From Serratia liquefaciens (GTDB lineage Bacteria > Pseudomonadota > Gammaproteobacteria > Enterobacterales > Enterobacteriaceae): a DNA stretch of 64,000 nucleotides. The stretch spans positions 4,277,019-4,341,018 of the forward strand of contig NZ_CP088930.1 in the NCBI RefSeq assembly GCF_027594825.1, in the 5' to 3' direction. The notes below the pieces were generated by a model. That model worked only from the letters and a program-made list of their open reading frames with translations. It made no database searches and was not told where the DNA came from. The translations under genes and the position numbers were made by a program. This document shows, piece by piece, positions 19,140 to 34,606 of this stretch (positions within the stretch are counted from its first letter, which is position 1; each line of letters opens with the position of its first letter).

Positions 19140-19160
19140 AATGATAACGAAAATCATTAT
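19140..19160 (-). promoter_or_regulatory. Putative Fur box upstream of gpmA
   Basis: The inverted repeat halves AATGATAA and AATCATTAT around CGAA resemble the Fur consensus GATAATGATAATCATTATC. It sits 30 bp before the gpmA start. Fur control of gpmA has been reported in E. coli. Confidence 0.7.
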
Positions 19161-26623: not shown

Positions 26624-27415
26624 TTAGCACAACGTGGCGACAATCACCCGATCGGCGTTAAACAAGGCGTGCACCGGGCTGGCGGGGCGCAGTTTAAGCT
26701 GCTGCAGTTCGGCATTGCTTACGGTGGCGCACAGGGTTTCGCCGCCCGTCAGCGTGACCAGCACTTCGCTGTGATCGGTGCCCGGTTGAATGCTGGCGAC
26801 CACGCCCGCCAATGCGTTGTCCGCAGCGCCGACCAGGGCCGGATCGGTATTCAGTTTTACCCAGGGGGCTTTAATCAGCGCCAGCACTTCCTTGCCGGGC
26901 GAGAGCTGCAGCCGATCGGCGCTCTGTTGAGTAATGGCCGCGCTAAGACGCGTTTTACCGTCGTTAAGGAGAATATCCAGATGCTGCTGCACCTGCTGGT
27001 GATCGCGTTCGATCACGGTGCCAAAGAACTGGTTGCGGGCGCTGGTTTGCAGTGAGAAACGCGAGATTGCCGCCAGCAGGCTGTCGAGCGGCAGCTCATC
27101 CTGTTGCAATACGTCGAAGGCTTTTTGCTGGATCTGCCCCAGCAGATCGTAAAGCTGAATCAACCGCTCCCCGTAGCGAGTCACCTGGGCCCCGCCACCA
27201 CCTTTGCCGCCGGTGGCACGTTCCACCACCGTCTGCTCCGCCAACTGATTCATTTCGTTAATCGCGTCCCAGGCACTTTTATAGCTGATGCCCGCCAGCT
27301 TGGCGCCCTGGCTGATGGATCCGGTGTGCCGGACTTGTTTCAGCAGCGCGATGCGGCGCGGATCGGCGAACAGTTTTTGCTGAAGTTTTAGGGTAAGAAG
27401 AATTTCGGCCTGCAT
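26624..27415 (-). CDS. modE: Molybdate-responsive transcriptional regulator ModE
   Basis: A 263-residue DNA-binding molybdate sensor. The N-terminal winged helix (about 1-110) contains GSISQGAKLAGISYKSAWDAINEMN and the glycine run GGKGGGGA. Two tandem MOP/TOBE molybdate-binding domains follow (about 125-262; e.g. SARNQFFGTVIERD and SEVLVTLTGGETLCATVS). It represses modABC and activates moaA in E. coli; matching boxes are present here at 33773 and 51922. The ATG at 27415 matches the family start MQAEILLTLKL. Confidence 0.95.
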   Translation of the reverse strand: MQAEILLTLKLQQKLFADPRRIALLKQVRHTGSISQGAKLAGISYKSAWDAINEMNQLAEQTVVERATGGKGGGGAQVTRYGERLIQLYDLLGQIQQKAFDVLQQDELPLDSLLAAISRFSLQTSARNQFFGTVIERDHQQVQQHLDILLNDGKTRLSAAITQQSADRLQLSPGKEVLALIKAPWVKLNTDPALVGAADNALAGVVASIQPGTDHSEVLVTLTGGETLCATVSNAELQQLKLRPASPVHALFNADRVIVATLC

Positions 27416-27529
27416 AACGCGTCCTGTCGGCTGCAAAAGCCTTATTGTCGCCGATTTAGTCGCAAAGCGCCAAAAGTGCGTCGGCAACAGCCTGGGAGTG
27501 AGAGCAATAAAAACTGGCCTTCAATTATT

Positions 27530-27552
27530 GAAATGTTATAACATAACAAAAA
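27530..27552 (+). promoter_or_regulatory. Putative Zur box upstream of the TonB-receptor operon
   Basis: The left half GAAATGTTATA is a perfect match to the Zur operator, and after one base the right half begins CATAACA (6 of 7 to TATAACA); only the outer four bases fail. It overlaps the promoter: TATAAT lies at 27554-27559, and the receptor starts 58 bp further on. Zn-loaded Zur would repress the operon. Confidence 0.72.
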
Positions 27553-27609
27553 ATATAATGATTGATGCCGGTCACGGCGGGTTTTTATTTCACCAAAGGG
27601 ATGCTGTAA

Positions 27610-29775
27610 ATGAGTGCTGCACGCCTGGGTTTCGTCACGCCCAAAAAATCACCTTATTACCTGATTACCGCTTTGCTGTTAAGCCTGCCGAACGTCGCGC
27701 AGGCCGCCAGCGATTGCGACAAAACCGAAAAGTCATCAGGTTGCGAAGACAGCTTAACCGTGCAGGCAGCCAGCCAGCCCCAGAGTACCTATGGCTCGCT
27801 GGATGTGGTCGCCCGTTCGGCATCGCGTCTGGGCTTGACCAGCAAAGAAACGCCGCGCAGTATTGAGGTTATCAGCGCACAAGCTATTGGGCAGCGGGGT
27901 GACAAAACGCTCGCCGACGTTGTCGAGCACGCGACAGGCATGTCAGGCGTGGCTTCACCCACGCTCAGCAACAATTTTTCGTTACGCGGTTTCAGGCCTG
28001 TGTCCTGGCTGTATAACGGCGTCGAAACGCCGGGCAGCACCCTTCAGCTAGCGGATCCTTCTCATTATGGCAGTGTAGAAGTGTTGCGCGGCCCCGGATC
28101 GGTGCTCAATGGCCTGAGCGCCGCCGGTGGCAGCGTCAATCTGCTTTCGCGCCAGCCTACCTTCAGCCGCCAGCCCATCGAGCTCGACTATGGCCTGTCG
28201 AGTTATAACAGCCAGCGCCTGCACCTGGGGGCGGGCGGCACGTTACTGGACGATGTGGCGGCTTACCGTTTGGACGTCAGCGGCAGCGACAGCGGCACCA
28301 ATGTGCAATATGAGCGTGATAAACAGAAGCGGGTATCCGGCGCACTGCTGTTTAAGTTGTCTGATAATGCCCTGCTGACATTAAACCTGGATCGCATGCT
28401 CAACCGCACCAACAACCCTTACTACGGCACGCCGCTGGTGGAAGGGAAGGTGGCTCGCGAGCTGCGCGATATCAACTACAACAACCTGACCGACAGCCGT
28501 ATCCAGAGCAATGCCACGTCGTTTCAGGCCAGCCTGGACTGGTTCACCACGCCCGAAATTGAGCTGCATAATCAGTTTTACTACTACAGCGGTTTTCGCG
28601 AATGGCGCAATGTGGAACGCTTTCGCGTCTCGGCGGCCACCCAGCCCGGCTATGTCAATCGCGATTCGTTCGGGGCGCTGGCCCACGATGATGACCTGAT
28701 CGGCAACCGCAGTTCCCTGGTGTTCGACCGGCCGCTGGGCGGCTTCGATAACCGGTTTATTGTCGGCATTGACCTGAGTAAACGCCGCTTTCAGTATTAC
28801 TCCAACGGCTTCCCCGGTTCCGAAGAGGTTCCGCTGCAGGCACCGATCAGAGAAAGTTTTTCTCAGGGCACCGATAGCCAACGTTCTCCGGTTCGTCGCG
28901 TTACGCAAAACCAGTACGCCGCCTTTTTGGAAGACCGCTTCAGCCTGACGGAGCGTTTAACCCTGCTGGGGCAGTTACGCTACAACCATATGGAGATGGA
29001 TTGGCATTTTCAGGGGCCGCAAGAAGAGCGCTCCTCGCAAACCTACGCCTTCAGCGTCTGGAGCCTTGGCCCCAGCTATGCGTTGACCGACAACCTCAAT
29101 ATTTACGCCAACTACACTACCGGCCAGGAGCCTGGCAACGATCTGTTCTTTTTAAGCCCGGCGCAAACCAGCCTGCCGCTGACCCGGGTACGCCAATGGG
29201 AAGTCGGTGCCAAGGGGCAGTTTTGGGATAACAAGGGTGAGGCCACGCTGGCACTGTACGAGCTGCGCAAGGACAACCTGTTCGTGCCCAATGCGCAGCA
29301 GCCGGATACGCTAAATGCGGTCGGTCGGCAGACTTCGCGCGGTGTGGAAGTCAACCTGATGCTGCGTCCTACCGATCGGTTGGAGCTGGCTGCCAATGCG
29401 GCCTACACCCATGCCCGTTACGATGAATACCGTGGCGGCAGCCCGTTGCGCAGCTATAACGGCAATCGCCCGGCCTACATCCCTGACTGGACCGCCAACC
29501 TCACGGCACGTTATATGCCGACGGAGCAGTGGGGGCTCACCTCATCGCTACGCTACGTGGGCAGCAGTTATAACGACGACGCCAACCAGCGTAAAATGCC
29601 GTCCTATACCACGCTCGATCTGGCCACGGACTATCAGATCACCCGGTCCGTGGGTGTGGGCGTGCGTATCAGAAACGTCACTAACCAGTTGTATGCCTAT
29701 CAACGTACATACCCGGATCAGGTGCTGATTGCGCCATCGCGCACTTACGAAAGCTTTATTTCGGTGAGGTTCTGA
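27610..29775 (+). CDS. TonB-dependent outer-membrane receptor, probable metal-chelate importer
   Basis: A 721-residue siderophore-receptor-like protein. The signal peptide (1-32, NVAQA) is followed by a short segment with two cysteines (Cys36 and Cys45), a TonB box DSLTVQA (47-53), a plug domain (about 68-180, with SLRGF and VEVLRGPGSVLNG) and a 22-strand barrel ending in Phe (ESFISVRF). It heads a five-gene operon for uptake across both membranes. The ligand is unknown; the Zur-like box points to zinc or a zinc chelate rather than iron. The gene lies between modE and modABC, a place empty in E. coli. Confidence 0.88.
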   Translation: MSAARLGFVTPKKSPYYLITALLLSLPNVAQAASDCDKTEKSSGCEDSLTVQAASQPQSTYGSLDVVARSASRLGLTSKETPRSIEVISAQAIGQRGDKTLADVVEHATGMSGVASPTLSNNFSLRGFRPVSWLYNGVETPGSTLQLADPSHYGSVEVLRGPGSVLNGLSAAGGSVNLLSRQPTFSRQPIELDYGLSSYNSQRLHLGAGGTLLDDVAAYRLDVSGSDSGTNVQYERDKQKRVSGALLFKLSDNALLTLNLDRMLNRTNNPYYGTPLVEGKVARELRDINYNNLTDSRIQSNATSFQASLDWFTTPEIELHNQFYYYSGFREWRNVERFRVSAATQPGYVNRDSFGALAHDDDLIGNRSSLVFDRPLGGFDNRFIVGIDLSKRRFQYYSNGFPGSEEVPLQAPIRESFSQGTDSQRSPVRRVTQNQYAAFLEDRFSLTERLTLLGQLRYNHMEMDWHFQGPQEERSSQTYAFSVWSLGPSYALTDNLNIYANYTTGQEPGNDLFFLSPAQTSLPLTRVRQWEVGAKGQFWDNKGEATLALYELRKDNLFVPNAQQPDTLNAVGRQTSRGVEVNLMLRPTDRLELAANAAYTHARYDEYRGGSPLRSYNGNRPAYIPDWTANLTARYMPTEQWGLTSSLRYVGSSYNDDANQRKMPSYTTLDLATDYQITRSVGVGVRIRNVTNQLYAYQRTYPDQVLIAPSRTYESFISVRF

Positions 29776-29782
29776 TCCCGCT

Positions 29783-30778
29783 ATGCAGCCGATAATCTGC
29801 CTGCTGGTGGCGCTGGGCCTGTCGTTTAACGCGCTGGCACAGACCGGCGCCGTCACCCTCAACAACTGCGGCCAGCCGTACCGTTACCCGGCGGTGCCTG
29901 AGCGCGTGCTGGTTTACGCCAATCCCGCGTTGGAAAACATGCTGGCGCTGGGGTTGGCACAACGCATCGTCGGCATCATCGGTTATGACTACGCGCAGGA
30001 TACGGCCCCGTCTGCGGCGAAATGGGGCAAAGCACTGAGCAAACTGTCGGCTGCCGCGCCGCCTGCGGCGGAACCTTTGCTGTTGCTCAATCCGGATTTT
30101 GTCTATTCGGCCAGTTACTACTGGTTTAACAGTCCGGAAACGCCCAGTCGCGATCGGCTGACGGAGTGGAAAATAGCCACCTATCTCTCGCCTGACGTCT
30201 GCAGTGGCCAACAAAGTACCGTAAGCCGCTCGGCGAGCTTCGAGGGTATTTTTGCCGAACTGCGTGATATTGCCCGAATTTTTAACGTCACCGGCGTGGC
30301 TGAACGCTTAATTAAAAAGCAGCAGTCACAACTGCGGGAACTGGAGCGACAGGCGGCGTCCTTGCCCCAACAGCGGCTATTTTGGTGGTATGCCGGTACG
30401 CAAACCCCTTATGTGGCGGGATGCTGCGGGGCACCGGCACTGCTGACCCGTCAGATTGGCAGTCAAAATCTGTTTGGCGACCTGCGCGAGCTTTGGCCCA
30501 CCGTATCCTGGGAAACCATTGCCGCCCGCGATCCCGACGTGATTGTGCTGGGCGATTTGCCCCGTGGCGGCCTCGGCGACAGTGCCAAAGACAAGATCCA
30601 TTTTCTGGAGCATCACCCTCTTACCTCAAGCCTGCGCGCCGTGCGCCAAAAACGCTATGTCATTTTGCCCGGCTACGATCTGGATCCCTCGGTACGTACC
30701 CTGGCGGCTTTGCAACGTTTAATTCAGGGCCTGCAGCAACAGGCCTTAGGATCACCCATTCCCAAAAAGGAACCCTGA
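29783..30778 (+). CDS. Periplasmic substrate-binding protein (Peripla_BP_2 family)
   Basis: A 331-residue class III binding protein of the FhuD/BtuF/HmuT type. The signal peptide (about 1-19, NALAQ) is followed by the N-lobe (RVLVYANPALENMLALGLAQRIVGI), a helix linker and a C-lobe (DPDVIVLGDLPRGG). Cysteines at 29, 140, 214 and 215 (AGCCGAP) are unusual and could bind metal or form disulfides. It starts 7 bp after the receptor and should hand the ligand to the permease below. Confidence 0.85.
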   Translation: MQPIICLLVALGLSFNALAQTGAVTLNNCGQPYRYPAVPERVLVYANPALENMLALGLAQRIVGIIGYDYAQDTAPSAAKWGKALSKLSAAAPPAAEPLLLLNPDFVYSASYYWFNSPETPSRDRLTEWKIATYLSPDVCSGQQSTVSRSASFEGIFAELRDIARIFNVTGVAERLIKKQQSQLRELERQAASLPQQRLFWWYAGTQTPYVAGCCGAPALLTRQIGSQNLFGDLRELWPTVSWETIAARDPDVIVLGDLPRGGLGDSAKDKIHFLEHHPLTSSLRAVRQKRYVILPGYDLDPSVRTLAALQRLIQGLQQQALGSPIPKKEP

Positions 30779-30779
30779 T

Positions 30780-31535
30780 ATGTCCTCTCTTTCATTCTCC
30801 TCACTGCTGACCTCGTGGGATCAACAGCAGGGCGCTTATATCGCCGAACGAGAAGCGCGTTTCAATGCCCAACTCGACGTGTTAGCGCTTTCGGTCGGCG
30901 AGGATTTTCACGTGCTCGATTTGGCCTGTGGGCCGGGATCGCTAAGCCTGCGCATCCTTCAACGTTTCCCGCAGGCCAAAGTAACGGCGATGGATCTCGA
31001 TCCGTTACTGTTGGCCATCGCCCGCGGCGCCCTGGCGGACTATGGCGACAGGATCCGCATCATTCAGGCCGATCTCGCCGATCCTGAGTGTTTCTCATCG
31101 CTTGAAGGGGCAACGCCTGACGCGGCGGTTTCCAGCACGGCGCTGCACTGGCTAATGCCGGAACAGCTGACGGTGCTGTATCGAAACATCGCCGAACTGC
31201 TACCCACGGGGGGCGTATTTCTGAATGCTGACCACCAGCGTTACGACCATCGGCAGCCACGCGTTAAAACGTTGGCTGAACTGCACGATAACCAGACGCA
31301 ACAACGGGCCTGGCGAAACGGCGTCGAAGACTGGGATCGGTGGTTTGACAAGGTGCAGCAACTGCCGGAGCTGGCGCAATATCGGCAACAGCGGGAAAAC
31401 CTGTTCGCCGGGCGTCCTGTCCCTCCGGCGACGGCATTGGACTTCCAACTTGCCAGCCTGACGCAGGCGGGGTTTACCGAGGTCGGGCCGGTCTGGCAAC
31501 TGCTGGATGACTACGTGATTGCAGGCTGGAAATAG
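30780..31535 (+). CDS. Class I SAM-dependent methyltransferase of the import operon
   Basis: A 251-residue cytoplasmic methyltransferase. Motif I is VLDLACGPGSLSLRIL (about 41-56), the acidic end of beta-2 is VTAMDLDPLLLAIARG and motif IV is DAAVSSTALHWLMPE. This layout resembles BioC/Tam-type enzymes. It starts with ATG 1 bp after the binding-protein stop, behind AAAAAGGA. Its substrate is unknown. Encoding a methyltransferase between the binding protein and the permease suggests chelate modification, but this is inference. Confidence 0.85.
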   Translation: MSSLSFSSLLTSWDQQQGAYIAEREARFNAQLDVLALSVGEDFHVLDLACGPGSLSLRILQRFPQAKVTAMDLDPLLLAIARGALADYGDRIRIIQADLADPECFSSLEGATPDAAVSSTALHWLMPEQLTVLYRNIAELLPTGGVFLNADHQRYDHRQPRVKTLAELHDNQTQQRAWRNGVEDWDRWFDKVQQLPELAQYRQQRENLFAGRPVPPATALDFQLASLTQAGFTEVGPVWQLLDDYVIAGWK

Positions 31536-31536
31536 T

Positions 31537-32568
31537 ATGAACGTAACGGTACGCCGGGGGGCGAGGCGTTCAGGTGGCTGGTTGTGCATGCTGGCGCTGG
31601 CGTTGCCGCTATTTTTGCTCGGTGCCTCGTTGTACGGACCGGCGCCAATATCGCTGCATGACGCGTGGCGTATTTTGTCTGCCCCTGGCGTTAACGCCGA
31701 CGACGGTAGCGAGATTTATCAACGGATAATCTGGTCATTGAGACTGCCCAGGGCGCTGTTGGCCGCGGTGGCGGGGGCCGGTCTGGCGTTGGCCGGCACC
31801 GTCCTGCAATCGCTGACGCGCAACCCATTGGCCGATCCCTGGGTGTTGGGGATCTCTTCCGGGGCGGGCGTGGGCGCCGTTCTGGTGCTGGTGTTGGGGC
31901 TCGGCGGCGGTCTGCTGTCGGTGTCTGGCGGGGCATTTATCGGTGCGGCCGGGGCCTTTGCCCTGGTTTTACTGCTCGCCGGGCGTTCCCTGAACGCCGA
32001 GTCATCGCTGTTTATTTTGGCGGGGGTCGCGGTCACGCAACTGCTTTCGGCACTGACCTCGCTGATTACCCTGTGGCAAGCGGACGCTAACGCCACGCGT
32101 GGTGTGATGTTCTGGCTACTGGGATCCTTCAGTGACGCTCGCTGGCCGCAGGTGGGGCTTTGCGCTCTGCTGCTGGCGGCGGCACTGGCGATTTGCTGGA
32201 TGAAAGCGGGCGAGCTGGACGCATTGGCGTTCGGCGGCCTGACCGCGGCGTCGTTGGGCGTGGCGGTGGCGCCGCTGAAACTGCTGCTGTACGGCATTAC
32301 CATGGCGCTGACGGCCGTTATCGTCGCCTTCAGCGGCGCGGTGGGGTTTATTGGGCTGACGGTGCCGCACGTCGCCAGACTGTTGGTCGGGCCGCGTCAC
32401 CGATTGCTGTTGCCGGCCAGCGCGCTGTGCGGCGCTTTGTTTGCCGTCGCGGCGGACACCCTGGCCAGAACCTTGTTTGAACCGCGCGAACTGCCGGTGG
32501 GCGTCTTGACCGCGTTGTTGGGTGTCCCGGTATTTCTCGCCTTGCTGTATCGGAAAATAAACGCATGA
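31537..32568 (+). CDS. FecCD-family ABC transporter permease
   Basis: A 343-residue inner-membrane permease with about ten spans. It carries the FecCD/BtuC markers LRLPRALLAAVAGAGLALAGTVLQ, RNPLADPWVLGISSGAGVGA and GAVGFIGLTVPHVARLLVG, the last being the ATPase-coupling region. The ATG at 31537 follows GGAAA and lies 1 bp past the methyltransferase stop. Its stop overlaps the ATPase start by 4 nt (ATGA). Confidence 0.9.
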   Translation: MNVTVRRGARRSGGWLCMLALALPLFLLGASLYGPAPISLHDAWRILSAPGVNADDGSEIYQRIIWSLRLPRALLAAVAGAGLALAGTVLQSLTRNPLADPWVLGISSGAGVGAVLVLVLGLGGGLLSVSGGAFIGAAGAFALVLLLAGRSLNAESSLFILAGVAVTQLLSALTSLITLWQADANATRGVMFWLLGSFSDARWPQVGLCALLLAAALAICWMKAGELDALAFGGLTAASLGVAVAPLKLLLYGITMALTAVIVAFSGAVGFIGLTVPHVARLLVGPRHRLLLPASALCGALFAVAADTLARTLFEPRELPVGVLTALLGVPVFLALLYRKINA

Positions 32569-33350
32569 ACAATGAAAGCCGGTTAACGGGGCTGCGTGCC
32601 GAAGGGTTGGGGTGGTCAACGGCAGAAAGAGTGGTGTTGAATAACCTCAGTTTTCACGCCCGGCCCGGTGAAATTACCGGCGTGCTCGGCGTCAACGGCA
32701 GCGGAAAATCTACGCTGCTCAAGTTGCTGGCGGGATTGATTTCCCCCAGCCGTGGCCGGGTGTATTTGCAGCAAACCGATATTGCCTCAATGAAAGGGCG
32801 CGAACGAGCCAAATGCATGACTTTCCTCGAACAGTCCGGGCCCGGTGCGTTTGCCATTGTGGTGAAAGACGTGGTGTTGCTCGGGCGTCTGGTTTACGCC
32901 AGTCGCTGGGCAGGGTTCAGCGCGGAAGATTATCGCATTGCCGGGCAGGCGATGGAGCAGGTCGGTATTTCGCACCTGGCCGATCGTGAATGGCAACAGC
33001 TGTCCGGCGGGGAACAGCAACGTGTTCATCTGGCACGCGCGCTGGCGCAACAAACGCCATGGCTGTTATTGGATGAGCCTGCCAACCATCTTGATATTGC
33101 CCATCAGCAGCAGTTTATGGCGTTATTGCGGCGGCTGGGCATCAGCGTAGTGGTTTCGCTGCACGACCTGAATTTGGCGGCCTGCTACTGTGACCGGCTG
33201 ATGTTGTTAAAGCAGGGAGGTTTGCACGCCTTCGGCCCCCCGCAGCAGGTGCTGACATCGGAGACGATAGACAAGGTTTATGGCGTAGAGGCTCGGCTGG
33301 TTGCGATTAGCGATTACGCCGCGCCGCTGATCTATTACCCCGTTCAGTAA
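32565..33350 (+). CDS. ABC transporter ATPase of the metal-chelate importer
   Basis: A 261-residue ATPase of the FepC/BtuD type. Walker A is GVNGSGKSTLLK (about 44), the signature is LSGGEQQRVHLARAL, Walker B is WLLLDEPANHLD and the H-loop is SLHDLNLAA. It powers the FecCD-family permease encoded just upstream and is the last gene of the operon. No clear terminator is visible in the 170 bp before acrZ. Confidence 0.92.
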   Translation: MNNESRLTGLRAEGLGWSTAERVVLNNLSFHARPGEITGVLGVNGSGKSTLLKLLAGLISPSRGRVYLQQTDIASMKGRERAKCMTFLEQSGPGAFAIVVKDVVLLGRLVYASRWAGFSAEDYRIAGQAMEQVGISHLADREWQQLSGGEQQRVHLARALAQQTPWLLLDEPANHLDIAHQQQFMALLRRLGISVVVSLHDLNLAACYCDRLMLLKQGGLHAFGPPQQVLTSETIDKVYGVEARLVAISDYAAPLIYYPVQ

Positions 33351-33519
33351 CGTCCACCGCAAGCCGAAAGGCGGCACCGGAGCACAAATGGCACGTTTGG
33401 CCGGTTACAAATTCTGCACAGTCTTTAAAATAACCCCGTTTTAGTCGGTTTTTTGGTTTAAACTGGAATTTACGTGGCGGTGTTCATTACCGCTCAATGG
33501 GCAGTTAAGTGAGGCTACC

Positions 33520-33669
33520 ATGTTGGATTTATTGAAAAGTTTGCTGTTCGCTGTGGTCATGGTTCCGGTGGTTATGGCCATCATCCTCGGCCTGATCTAC
33601 GGTTTGGCGGAAGTGTTCAACATTTTCTCCAAAGTGGGCCGTTCGAAAGAAAACCGCACCCAGCACTGA
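33520..33669 (+). CDS. acrZ: Multidrug efflux accessory protein AcrZ
   Basis: A 49-residue single-span protein, [20 protein letters not shown] with a C-terminal charged tail ([11 protein letters not shown]). It is the same length as E. coli AcrZ (YbhT), which binds AcrB and widens AcrAB-TolC export. A GAGG site precedes the ATG. As in E. coli it sits just before modA; it is small enough to be missed by length-limited gene calls. Confidence 0.93.
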
Positions 33670-33693
33670 TCGTTACCCGTTCCCCTTTTTAAG

Positions 33694-33715
33694 CCTGCCG
33701 GCGTCGTTCGGCAGG
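33694..33715 (+). terminator. Hairpin downstream of acrZ
   Basis: A 7-bp stem CCTGCCG / CGGCAGG with an 8-nt loop is followed by TGTTTCTC, 24 bp after the acrZ stop. The U-run is modest. Confidence 0.55.
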
Positions 33716-33772
33716 TGTTTCTCAAGATATCTCACACCCTGCCGATAAACCGCATGACAAGCTTCTGCGCGA

Positions 33773-33796
33773 CGTTATATTATTTTTTATATAACG
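33773..33796 (+). promoter_or_regulatory. ModE box at the modABC promoter
   Basis: CGTTATAT-N8-ATATAACG is a perfect inverted repeat matching the ModE operator of E. coli modA. It lies 37 bp upstream of the modA start. Molybdate-bound ModE is expected to repress here. Confidence 0.9.
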
Positions 33797-33832
33797 AAGA
33801 GTGATAATGCACGTTAACTTGCGGAGAAAACA

Positions 33833-34606
33833 ATGAAACAGCAATGGACTAAGTGGGTCGGCGGTATCGTATTGGCATCCGGTATGGTCATGCAGGCATC
33901 GGCAGCGGATAAAATTACCGTTTTTGCGGCCGCCTCGCTGACTAACGCGCTGCAGGATATCGCGACCCAATACCAGAAGGGCAAGGATGTGCAGGTGGTT
34001 TCCTCATTCGCCTCCTCTTCTACGTTGGCGCGCCAGATTGAGCAGGGCGCACCGGCCGATCTGTTTATCTCTGCCGATCAGCAGTGGATGGATTACGCCA
34101 TCGACAAGCAGCAAATGGTTAAAGACACCCGTTATACCCTGTTGGGGAACGAACTGGTGCTGATCGCCGCAAAAGATGCCAAACCGGCTAAAATCACGCT
34201 CGACAAGCAAACCGACTGGGCAAAACTGCTCAATGGCGGCCGCCTGTCGGTGGGCGATCCGGACCACGTGCCTGCCGGCATTTATGCCAAGGAAGCGCTG
34301 CAGAATCTCGGTGCCTGGACCGCGCTGGAGCCTAAGCTGGCACGGGCCAACAACGTACGCAGCGCCATGGCACTGGTAGAACGCGGCGAAGCGCCGTTGG
34401 GCATTGTTTATGGCTCAGACGCGGTAGCCAGTGATAAAGTCAGCGTGGTGGCCATCTTCCCGGAAGACAGCCACAAACCGGTGGAATACCCGATGGCGAT
34501 AGTTAAAGGGCATCAAACTCCGGCCGTCAGCGCGTTCTACAGTTACCTGAAGAGCCCGGAAGCGGCTGCTATTTTCAAACATTATGGATTCTCCCCGCGT
34601 AAATGA
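33833..34606 (+). CDS. modA: Molybdate-binding periplasmic protein ModA
   Basis: A 257-residue binding protein for molybdate/tungstate. The signal peptide (about 1-24, MQASA) is followed by the SBP_bac_11 fold with ITVFAAASLTNALQDIA, the oxyanion-contact segment FASSSTLARQIEQGAPADLFISAD and the late RGEAPLGIVYGSDA. It is the first gene of modABC, and its stop overlaps the modB start by 4 nt. Confidence 0.96.
   Translation: MKQQWTKWVGGIVLASGMVMQASAADKITVFAAASLTNALQDIATQYQKGKDVQVVSSFASSSTLARQIEQGAPADLFISADQQWMDYAIDKQQMVKDTRYTLLGNELVLIAAKDAKPAKITLDKQTDWAKLLNGGRLSVGDPDHVPAGIYAKEALQNLGAWTALEPKLARANNVRSAMALVERGEAPLGIVYGSDAVASDKVSVVAIFPEDSHKPVEYPMAIVKGHQTPAVSAFYSYLKSPEAAAIFKHYGFSPRK

Follow-up and report, generated by a model that had tools for sequence, protein, structure and literature searches.

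By architecture and regulation, the nearest worked-out system that we found is PA2911-PA2914 of Pseudomonas aeruginosa, for which pyochelin-cobalt has been proposed as the cargo under severe zinc shortage (PMC11481552). A second group comprises the systems of the opine zincophores staphylopine, pseudopaline and yersinopine; FecCD-type importers occur in many of their gene clusters, and within one group eight clusters additionally encode a PF13649 methyltransferase, a feature tied to actinomycetes with FecCD only (PMC7438024). With respect to the receptor, CrtA (BfrG) of B. pertussis takes up chelated copper, was found in one of its crystal forms with citrate bound in the pocket, requires an essential histidine, His358, and is encoded by genes that are followed by PepSY_TM genes in >75% of the loci (PMC12914433). 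Finally, the class I SAM methyltransferase MSMEG_6055 of M. smegmatis, whose gene lies among ABC genes in a cluster that responds to zinc, was induced 28-fold with TPEN (q <0.0001) and 498-fold without Zur; the q value printed for the latter is 1.00, which is also the value printed for other very strongly induced genes (PMC7174638).

Here we describe a five-gene operon of Serratia liquefaciens that shares features with each of these systems. A literature search covering listed titles, the openings of abstracts and selected passages, with most subscription papers outside its reach, returned no description of this operon.

Gene content of the operon

The operon was analysed within a 64-kb stretch of DNA, hereafter the window. 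It contains five co-directional genes located between 27610 and 33350, and the junctions, in gene order, are gaps of 7, 1 and 1 bp followed by a 4-bp overlap. The gene families and the tight spacing given in a first-pass annotation of this DNA are confirmed. The features of the operon are as follows.

27530 to 27550, + strand: Zur-type box, GAAATGTTATAACATAACA; the 19-mer at 27532-27550 departs at three positions from the Zur box published for gamma-proteobacteria
27610 to 29775, + strand: TonB-dependent receptor, 721 aa, with CrtA (9rvq) as the closest solved structure
29783 to 30778, + strand: periplasmic binding protein (SBP), Peripla_BP_2 (Pfam), 331 aa
30780 to 31535, + strand: class I SAM-dependent methyltransferase (MT), PF13649 (Pfam), 251 aa
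31537 to 32568, + strand: FecCD-type ABC permease, from its ATG start (the mechanical ORF begins at a TTG at 31519)
32565 to 33350, + strand: ABC ATPase, 261 aa; among the compared loci, found only in the Serratia copies

According to Pfam, all four transport proteins are members of families that import chelates, and PF07715, PF00593, PF01497, PF01032 and PF00005 are found together in one operon, as is characteristic of TonB/FecCD-type chelate importers. The binding protein, permease and ATPase did not reach the cut-off of any of the NCBIfam families listed; for the ATPase, this concerns the best 25 of 193 models, of which the heme-transporter model NF010068 came closest (255.7 versus 261). 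The best NCBIfam matches of the ABC parts were EitABC and the "putative F420-0" ABC models TIGR03868, TIGR03869 and TIGR03873, again all below the curated cut-offs (for the binding protein, 181.5 versus 392.4 and 127.1 versus 640), and a role related to F420 is not expected in Serratia. A search of an anti-phage library with the binding protein gave no match.

A conserved Zur-type box precedes the operon

The sequence GAAATGTTATAACATAACA spans positions 27530-27548, about 60 bp 5' of the receptor gene, and consists of GAAATGTTATA, one base, and CATAACA, exactly as the first-pass annotation had it. The 19-mer at 27532-27550 is the sole match in the window, at up to three mismatches, to the 19-bp gamma-proteobacterial Zur box that we took as reference from PMC2706843, and none of 100 shuffled windows yielded a match at this threshold. 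When the entire genome was scanned (5,347,174 bases, one contig), the 27530 19-mer was matched with up to three mismatches seven times on the forward and four times on the reverse strand, and the reversed pattern was matched on neither (0 + 0). The genome encodes Zur itself (NF008646, 322.5 bits versus a cut-off of 167). Of the 25 receptor genes of the genome, that of the operon alone carries a site with no more than one mismatch in the 1.2 kb preceding the plug; a two-mismatch site occurs at one other. Fur was considered as an alternative regulator: a 19-mer Fur consensus matched the whole window with up to three mismatches only at 19143, and not near the operon. Scans of the region 27400-34000 gave five promoter matches (3.2 in shuffles), none of them before the receptor gene, and ten terminator matches (7.7 in shuffles); being close to the shuffle level, these counts carry no weight.

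To assess the conservation of the box, we used loci obtained by scanning contigs with two peptide patterns derived from the receptor alignment, an incomplete census that gave 23 loci: 21 from enterobacteria (10 Serratia and 11 non-Serratia), one from an Acidithiobacillus MAG and one unrelated. A Zur-like box with 2-5 mismatches in its best-matching 19-mer is present 5' of the receptor gene at each of the 21 enterobacterial loci, and five mismatches were reached in none of 1156 control windows of equal size from the same loci, which are mostly coding. At the Acidithiobacillus locus, the best 19-mer has eight mismatches, so that there is no box, and no other gene of the operon lies nearby. Within the genus Serratia, the receptor is found in 20 of 30 genomes, although in one of them (G215) its gene is split into three pieces, and a box with 2-5 mismatches accompanies it at 16 of 16 loci from these 20 receptor-positive genomes; this set overlaps partly in species with the 21 enterobacterial loci. 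In the relative G087, no box was found within 250 bp of the receptor ORF, and the nearest site with one mismatch lies about 0.6 kb upstream. The S. liquefaciens and S. marcescens groups have differently built boxes at about the same position, which indicates that the site has been retained in spite of drift in its sequence.

The binding protein, MT and FecCD permease are likewise encoded at all 21 enterobacterial loci, with the MT gene always between the other two. Plasmids yielded 26 records with receptor matches, all below 60% identity (the 20 listed have 30-34%), and 301 records with relatives of the binding protein, many of them in E. coli at about 31% according to the listing. The binding-protein loci of Duffyella and Rhodococcus are annotated as SBP-FecCD-ATPase without an MT.

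Other Zur-like boxes in the genome

The 15-mer core of the box occurs, with at most one mismatch, at 11 places in the genome. Its neighbours include a group of folE2 and ZigA (NCBIfam, over the cut-off) with a carbonic-anhydrase-like gene, which stands back to back with a peptide-type ABC system, and the genes for a type B ribosomal protein L31 (over the cut-off), a Zn/Mn-type ABC system (judged by eye), a second peptide-type ABC system, an ATPase-SBP-FecCD set, a DksA paralogue in which most of the zinc-finger cysteines are replaced, and an operon with genes of the opine-zincophore type, which is discussed below; the present operon is also among the 11. A further core site, at 1667550, lies in front of what appears to be a ZevAB-like gene pair, and two sites, at 4159020 (ppiB/cysS-like genes) and 4888349 (EptA-type gene), have no clear link to zinc. 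The gene for ZnuA (over the cut-off) is preceded by a weaker core site with two mismatches. ZnuABC not counted, six ABC importers of this genome are associated with Zur-like boxes that have no more than one mismatch.

The short core alone is not proof of Zur control. At up to two mismatches it is matched 33 + 35 times versus 25 + 18 times for the reversed control; in six relatives, the reversed control is matched 1-6 times per strand at up to one mismatch, and in G087 the core pattern is no commoner at this threshold than its reversed control. Since the core is not rare by itself, we put the weight on the longer box, its neighbours and its conservation. The predicted control of the operon by Zur is very likely in our view, because the genome has its own Zur, similar boxes stand at zinc-starvation genes, the box is conserved together with the operon and there is no Fur-like site nearby. 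The zinc control suggested by the first-pass annotation has therefore gained comparative support.

The methyltransferase and the ATPase

The operon has two unusual features: the presence of an MT gene within an importer operon, and the absence of the ATPase gene from all 11 non-Serratia operons.

In 36 chosen members of the MT family, the SAM motif C50-G53 is invariant, as are W13, Q16, Q17, Y20, R24, R27, H123, W124, D151, H152 and R154. Because these residues do not vary, the MT is expected to be an active enzyme. Some of its relatives are annotated as trans-aconitate (carboxyl) methyltransferases, and the nearest named homologues outside Enterobacterales, among the matches listed, many of which are nameless, are actinobacterial, with about 50% identity. 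The order SBP-MT-FecCD-ATPase recurs in one actinobacterium, Nonomuraea gerenzanensis, with identities of 38, 47, 58 and 46%, respectively. There, the probable start of the first gene is covered in part by a site with two mismatches to the actinobacterial Zur-box consensus, where 0.01 such matches would be expected in the stretch (cf. PMC5472717 for an actinobacterial motif). The actinobacterial sample consists of five records of a plasmid collection with an MT match. Besides Nonomuraea, these include the Streptomyces plasmid L181, which has a Zur-like palindrome with two mismatches just before the MT gene, and three further Streptomyces records, in which the MT gene is preceded by a weaker Zur-like palindrome (L182), lies beside an Opp-type ABC system (L129) or is found in an unrelated biosynthetic setting (L180). 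The other operon genes searched for gave no matches in L180-L182. With one full cassette and one lone MT gene at Zur-like sites among only five records, the Zur link across phyla comes from few loci.

Reduction, by which iron is released from its chelates, does not work for zinc, and an enzyme that methylates the donor groups is therefore an attractive candidate for its release. The imported chelate is a possible substrate of the MT, whose action might set the redox-inert zinc free. A more specific version, to which we give limited credence, is that the MT is a metal-release enzyme that, by methylating carboxylates or amines with which the imported chelate binds its metal in the cytoplasm, would weaken this binding and thereby free the zinc, and that the SBP-MT-FecCD-ATPase cassette has been kept under Zur from Enterobacterales to Actinomycetota. 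If true, the MT would be the zinc counterpart of the siderophore reductases and esterases.

The ATPase gene is present in 10 of 10 Serratia loci. Two of the non-Serratia loci have nearby ATPases of about 30% identity, which apparently belong to different ABC systems. In five of six non-Serratia genomes looked at, a Zur-like box stands at or upstream of another ABC set that includes an ATPase; the exception is G112, in whose examined stretches none was found. These observations are only suggestive of an ATPase lent by the second set; for such sharing there is a precedent in S. aureus, where FhuC serves another permease (PMC9598555).

Proposed function

Judged from the box, the protein families and their conservation, the operon is probably a Zur-repressed, TonB- and ATP-driven importer of metal chelates for times of zinc shortage. 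In the presence of zinc, Zn-Zur would occupy the box at 27530 and block the promoter. Under zinc starvation, the receptor would carry a zinc chelate (or a zinc-sparing cobalt chelate) across the outer membrane and the binding protein would hand it to the FecCD permease and the ATPase for transfer into the cytoplasm, as their families suggest, where the MT would modify the imported ligand or a product of it. The ligand would most likely be a metallophore of the carboxylate or opine/nicotianamine type, often made by others, and S. liquefaciens perhaps also imports its own opine zincophore. Of the zinc-chelate route proposed in the first-pass annotation, chelate import is well founded and a zinc chelate is the most likely cargo, although a cobalt chelate is a possible one as well.

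To our knowledge, two questions are open in this field, namely how redox-inert zinc is freed from an imported chelate, and which receptors take up zincophores in Enterobacterales. The operon offers a concrete candidate for both: a conserved, Zur-linked receptor, and an MT that remains associated with the importer. Should the ligand be identified, a zinc-chelate route would be added for Serratia and related enterobacteria, and non-producers would be shown to import chelates made by others.

Alternative readings

The receptor might serve specifically the opine zincophore made by the cell itself, for which an outer-membrane receptor is otherwise missing. The first-pass annotation had proposed to search for neighbouring metallophore genes; none lie beside the operon, and cntL and cntM in particular are absent next to its transporter. 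Elsewhere in the genome, at about 5.20 Mb and unlinked, there is an operon of the order SBP-FecCD-ATPase-CntL-CntM-EamA, preceded by a Zur-like box with one mismatch, and no receptor gene was found in the stretch examined around it. Neither its CntL nor its CntM reaches the cut-off of the respective staphylopine equivalog model, but CntM is over its Pfam cut-off. All eight Serratia genomes with the CntM dehydrogenase have the receptor, versus 12 of the 22 others; however, this co-occurrence is weak, with a one-sided p of 0.022 over the 30 genomes and 0.081 without four reduced ones, both uncorrected for kinship. Moreover, the opine operon carries its own ABC importer, and PF10100 was matched in none of 15 other receptor-positive genomes tested, the receptor gene being broken in G113 and G215; the control genomes were also without a match, and the model does match in the S. 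liquefaciens genome. In a draw from the family, PF10100 was found in 1 and the receptor in 10 of 198 genomes. Because 15 of 15 receptor-bearing genomes lack the dehydrogenase, foreign chelates are likely to be used, and in general, uptake of chelates from other producers is the better reading. We therefore consider a dedicated link to the cell's own opine doubtful.

It is rather unlikely, in our estimate, that the cargo is a zinc-sparing cobalt chelate or a mixed-metal siderophore imported under Zur control. The operon shares architecture and regulator with PA2911-PA2914, where TonB receptor and ABC permease genes are under Zur, and since pyochelin-cobalt is the cargo proposed for that system, a cobalt chelate has to be considered here by analogy; on the other hand, no methyltransferase is mentioned for PA2911-PA2914 in the parts of PMC11481552 consulted.

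Uptake of an iron siderophore under Fur would agree with the receptor being just above the cut-off of the siderophore-receptor subfamily TIGR01783 (226.7 versus 223.5 bits), but the box at 27530 is of the Zur type and is conserved as such, and with the sole Fur-like site of the window far from the operon, control by Fur was rejected and this reading is very improbable.

Uptake of a copper chelate, as by CrtA, is just as improbable. CrtA is by far the nearest solved structure (9rvq, E 6.5e-64; next 9e-29), and H359 of the receptor, which is invariant in nine of nine receptors and corresponds to Val in FhuA, aligns with the essential His358. However, as read from the alignment, only two of the six conserved residues of the CrtA pocket are identical (E337 and H358); W265 is replaced by Tyr, and with Y130, Q356 and R395 different as well, transport of the same metal does not follow. 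Moreover, the receptor gene is not followed by the PepSY_TM gene that accompanies most CrtA genes, but by genes for the SBP, MT, FecCD permease and ATPase, and it stands behind a Zur box. The PDB entries 6i96-6i98, entitled "Metal-pseudopaline receptor CntO", were set aside as evidence on CntO, because another entry of seemingly the same protein bears both names and they appear to be FoxA.

The remaining alternative derives from the position of the operon in the molybdate locus, for which the following features are relevant.

26624 to 27415, - strand: modE, left neighbour outside the system; start inferred from a model alignment
27475 to 33385, no strand: inserted segment, with ends known to within a few bases
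33520 to 33669, + strand: presumably acrZ, right neighbour outside the system
33773 to 33796, no strand: ModE-type palindrome before modA, which differs from the Zur box
33833 onwards, + strand: modA-B-C

At each of the 10 named Serratia loci, the operon is found with modE on one side and modA on the other, as the first-pass annotation had stated for this one, except that acrZ also lies between the ATPase gene and modA. Alignment and reading by eye against empty sites place the junctions of the 5.9-kb insert at about 27474/27475 and 33385/33386, and its G+C content of 59.0% resembles that of the flanks (57.6 and 57.9%). Among eight Serratia genomes without a receptor match that were searched for modA, seven have it, and in six of these seven stretches modE stands beside acrZ-modA, i.e. 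the site is empty and acrZ sits beside modA in the same way; modE was not seen in the seventh. At the non-Serratia loci, modE, modF, modA and modB were found beside the operon in 0 of 11 (flanks of up to 7 kb, shorter upstream at L080), two loci showing a 30% match to a ModC-like ABC ATPase in the flanks, and the loci without mod neighbours keep the Zur-like box. The position in the mod locus is thus incidental to the operon. Uptake of a molybdenum or tungsten chelate, which the constant position in Serratia had suggested, is highly improbable and was rejected in view of the non-Serratia synteny, the empty sites and the separate ModE-type palindrome before modA.

Comparison with known systems

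Compared by description only, PA2911-PA2914 resembles the operon in its combination of a receptor with an ABC importer and in the regulation by Zur and the role in severe zinc shortage that are predicted here, and differs from it in the proposed pyochelin-cobalt cargo and, as far as described, in lacking a methyltransferase. The opine zincophore systems have in common with it the uptake of a zinc chelate, which is probable for the operon, the FecCD-type importers and, in eight clusters, the PF13649 methyltransferase; in contrast, the operon is without CntL and CntM, and the opine operon of this genome is unlinked and has other ABC genes. CrtA/BfrG is the nearest solved receptor, with its essential histidine aligned, but it is controlled by copper and CruR, has a PepSY_TM partner and differs in four of six pocket residues (PMC12914433). 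MSMEG_6055 may serve as a lead, being, by description, a Zur-linked class I SAM methyltransferase with ABC neighbours like the MT of the operon; M. smegmatis is not named among the best 120 MT homologues listed, many of which are nameless.

Other importer sets

A Zur-boxed opine-zincophore operon is present elsewhere in the S. liquefaciens genome, which also carries two peptide-type ABC sets at Zur-like boxes, and an importer set related to that of the operon under study was found on a Rhodococcus plasmid:

L098 736-5761 and L125 14894-15787 (~5.200-5.207 Mb), opine-zincophore operon
L022 4360-12542 (~507 kb), divergent unit flanking a Zur-like box
L020 9328-14223 (~637 kb), second peptide-type ABC, immediately downstream of a Zur-like box
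L128 7878-10806 (Rhodococcus plasmid), SBP-FecCD-ATPase set without the methyltransferase

The opine-zincophore operon has the gene order SBP-FecCD-ATPase-CntL-CntM-EamA-type exporter, and no TonB receptor gene was found within the stretch fetched at this locus. One arm of the ~507 kb unit consists of folE2, a carbonic-anhydrase-like gene and ZigA, and the opposite arm encodes the peptide-type ABC, with SBP_bac_5 followed by permease-like and ATPase-like genes. The permease of the ~637 kb set looks like a fusion. The Rhodococcus set adjoins an aliphatic amidase gene and an acetamidase/formamidase gene.

Leader and receptor gene

Side observations on the receptor gene (window 27610-29775) and its leader are the following:

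window 27566-27588, terminator-like hairpin with a T run, between the Zur-type box and the receptor start
G215 C2:860626-862677 (Serratia), receptor gene in pieces
G113 C1:3132309-3134155 (another enterobacterial genome), receptor gene in pieces

Comparable G+C-rich repeats followed by T runs lie upstream of the receptor in two other Serratia (L026 and L027). The hairpin is a possible site of leader attenuation, with the proviso that comparable matches are frequent in shuffled sequence. The broken receptor genes may reflect either decay or assembly error. At the receptor N-terminus, a cysteine pair directly precedes the likely TonB box in five of the nine aligned receptors (three from Serratia and those of loci L028 and L032), and is absent from the remaining four.

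Other Zur-like sites

Three further Zur-like sites were located in the S. liquefaciens genome:

L024 7359-7784 (~5.011 Mb), DksA paralogue downstream of a perfect Zur core
L096 ~6021 (4159020), perfect Zur core palindrome, flanked by ppiB-like and cysS-like genes
L097 ~5551 (1667550), one-mismatch Zur-like site where a gene pair begins

The zinc-finger cysteines of the DksA paralogue are mostly substituted. The gene pair at 1667550, judged by eye, resembles ZevAB.
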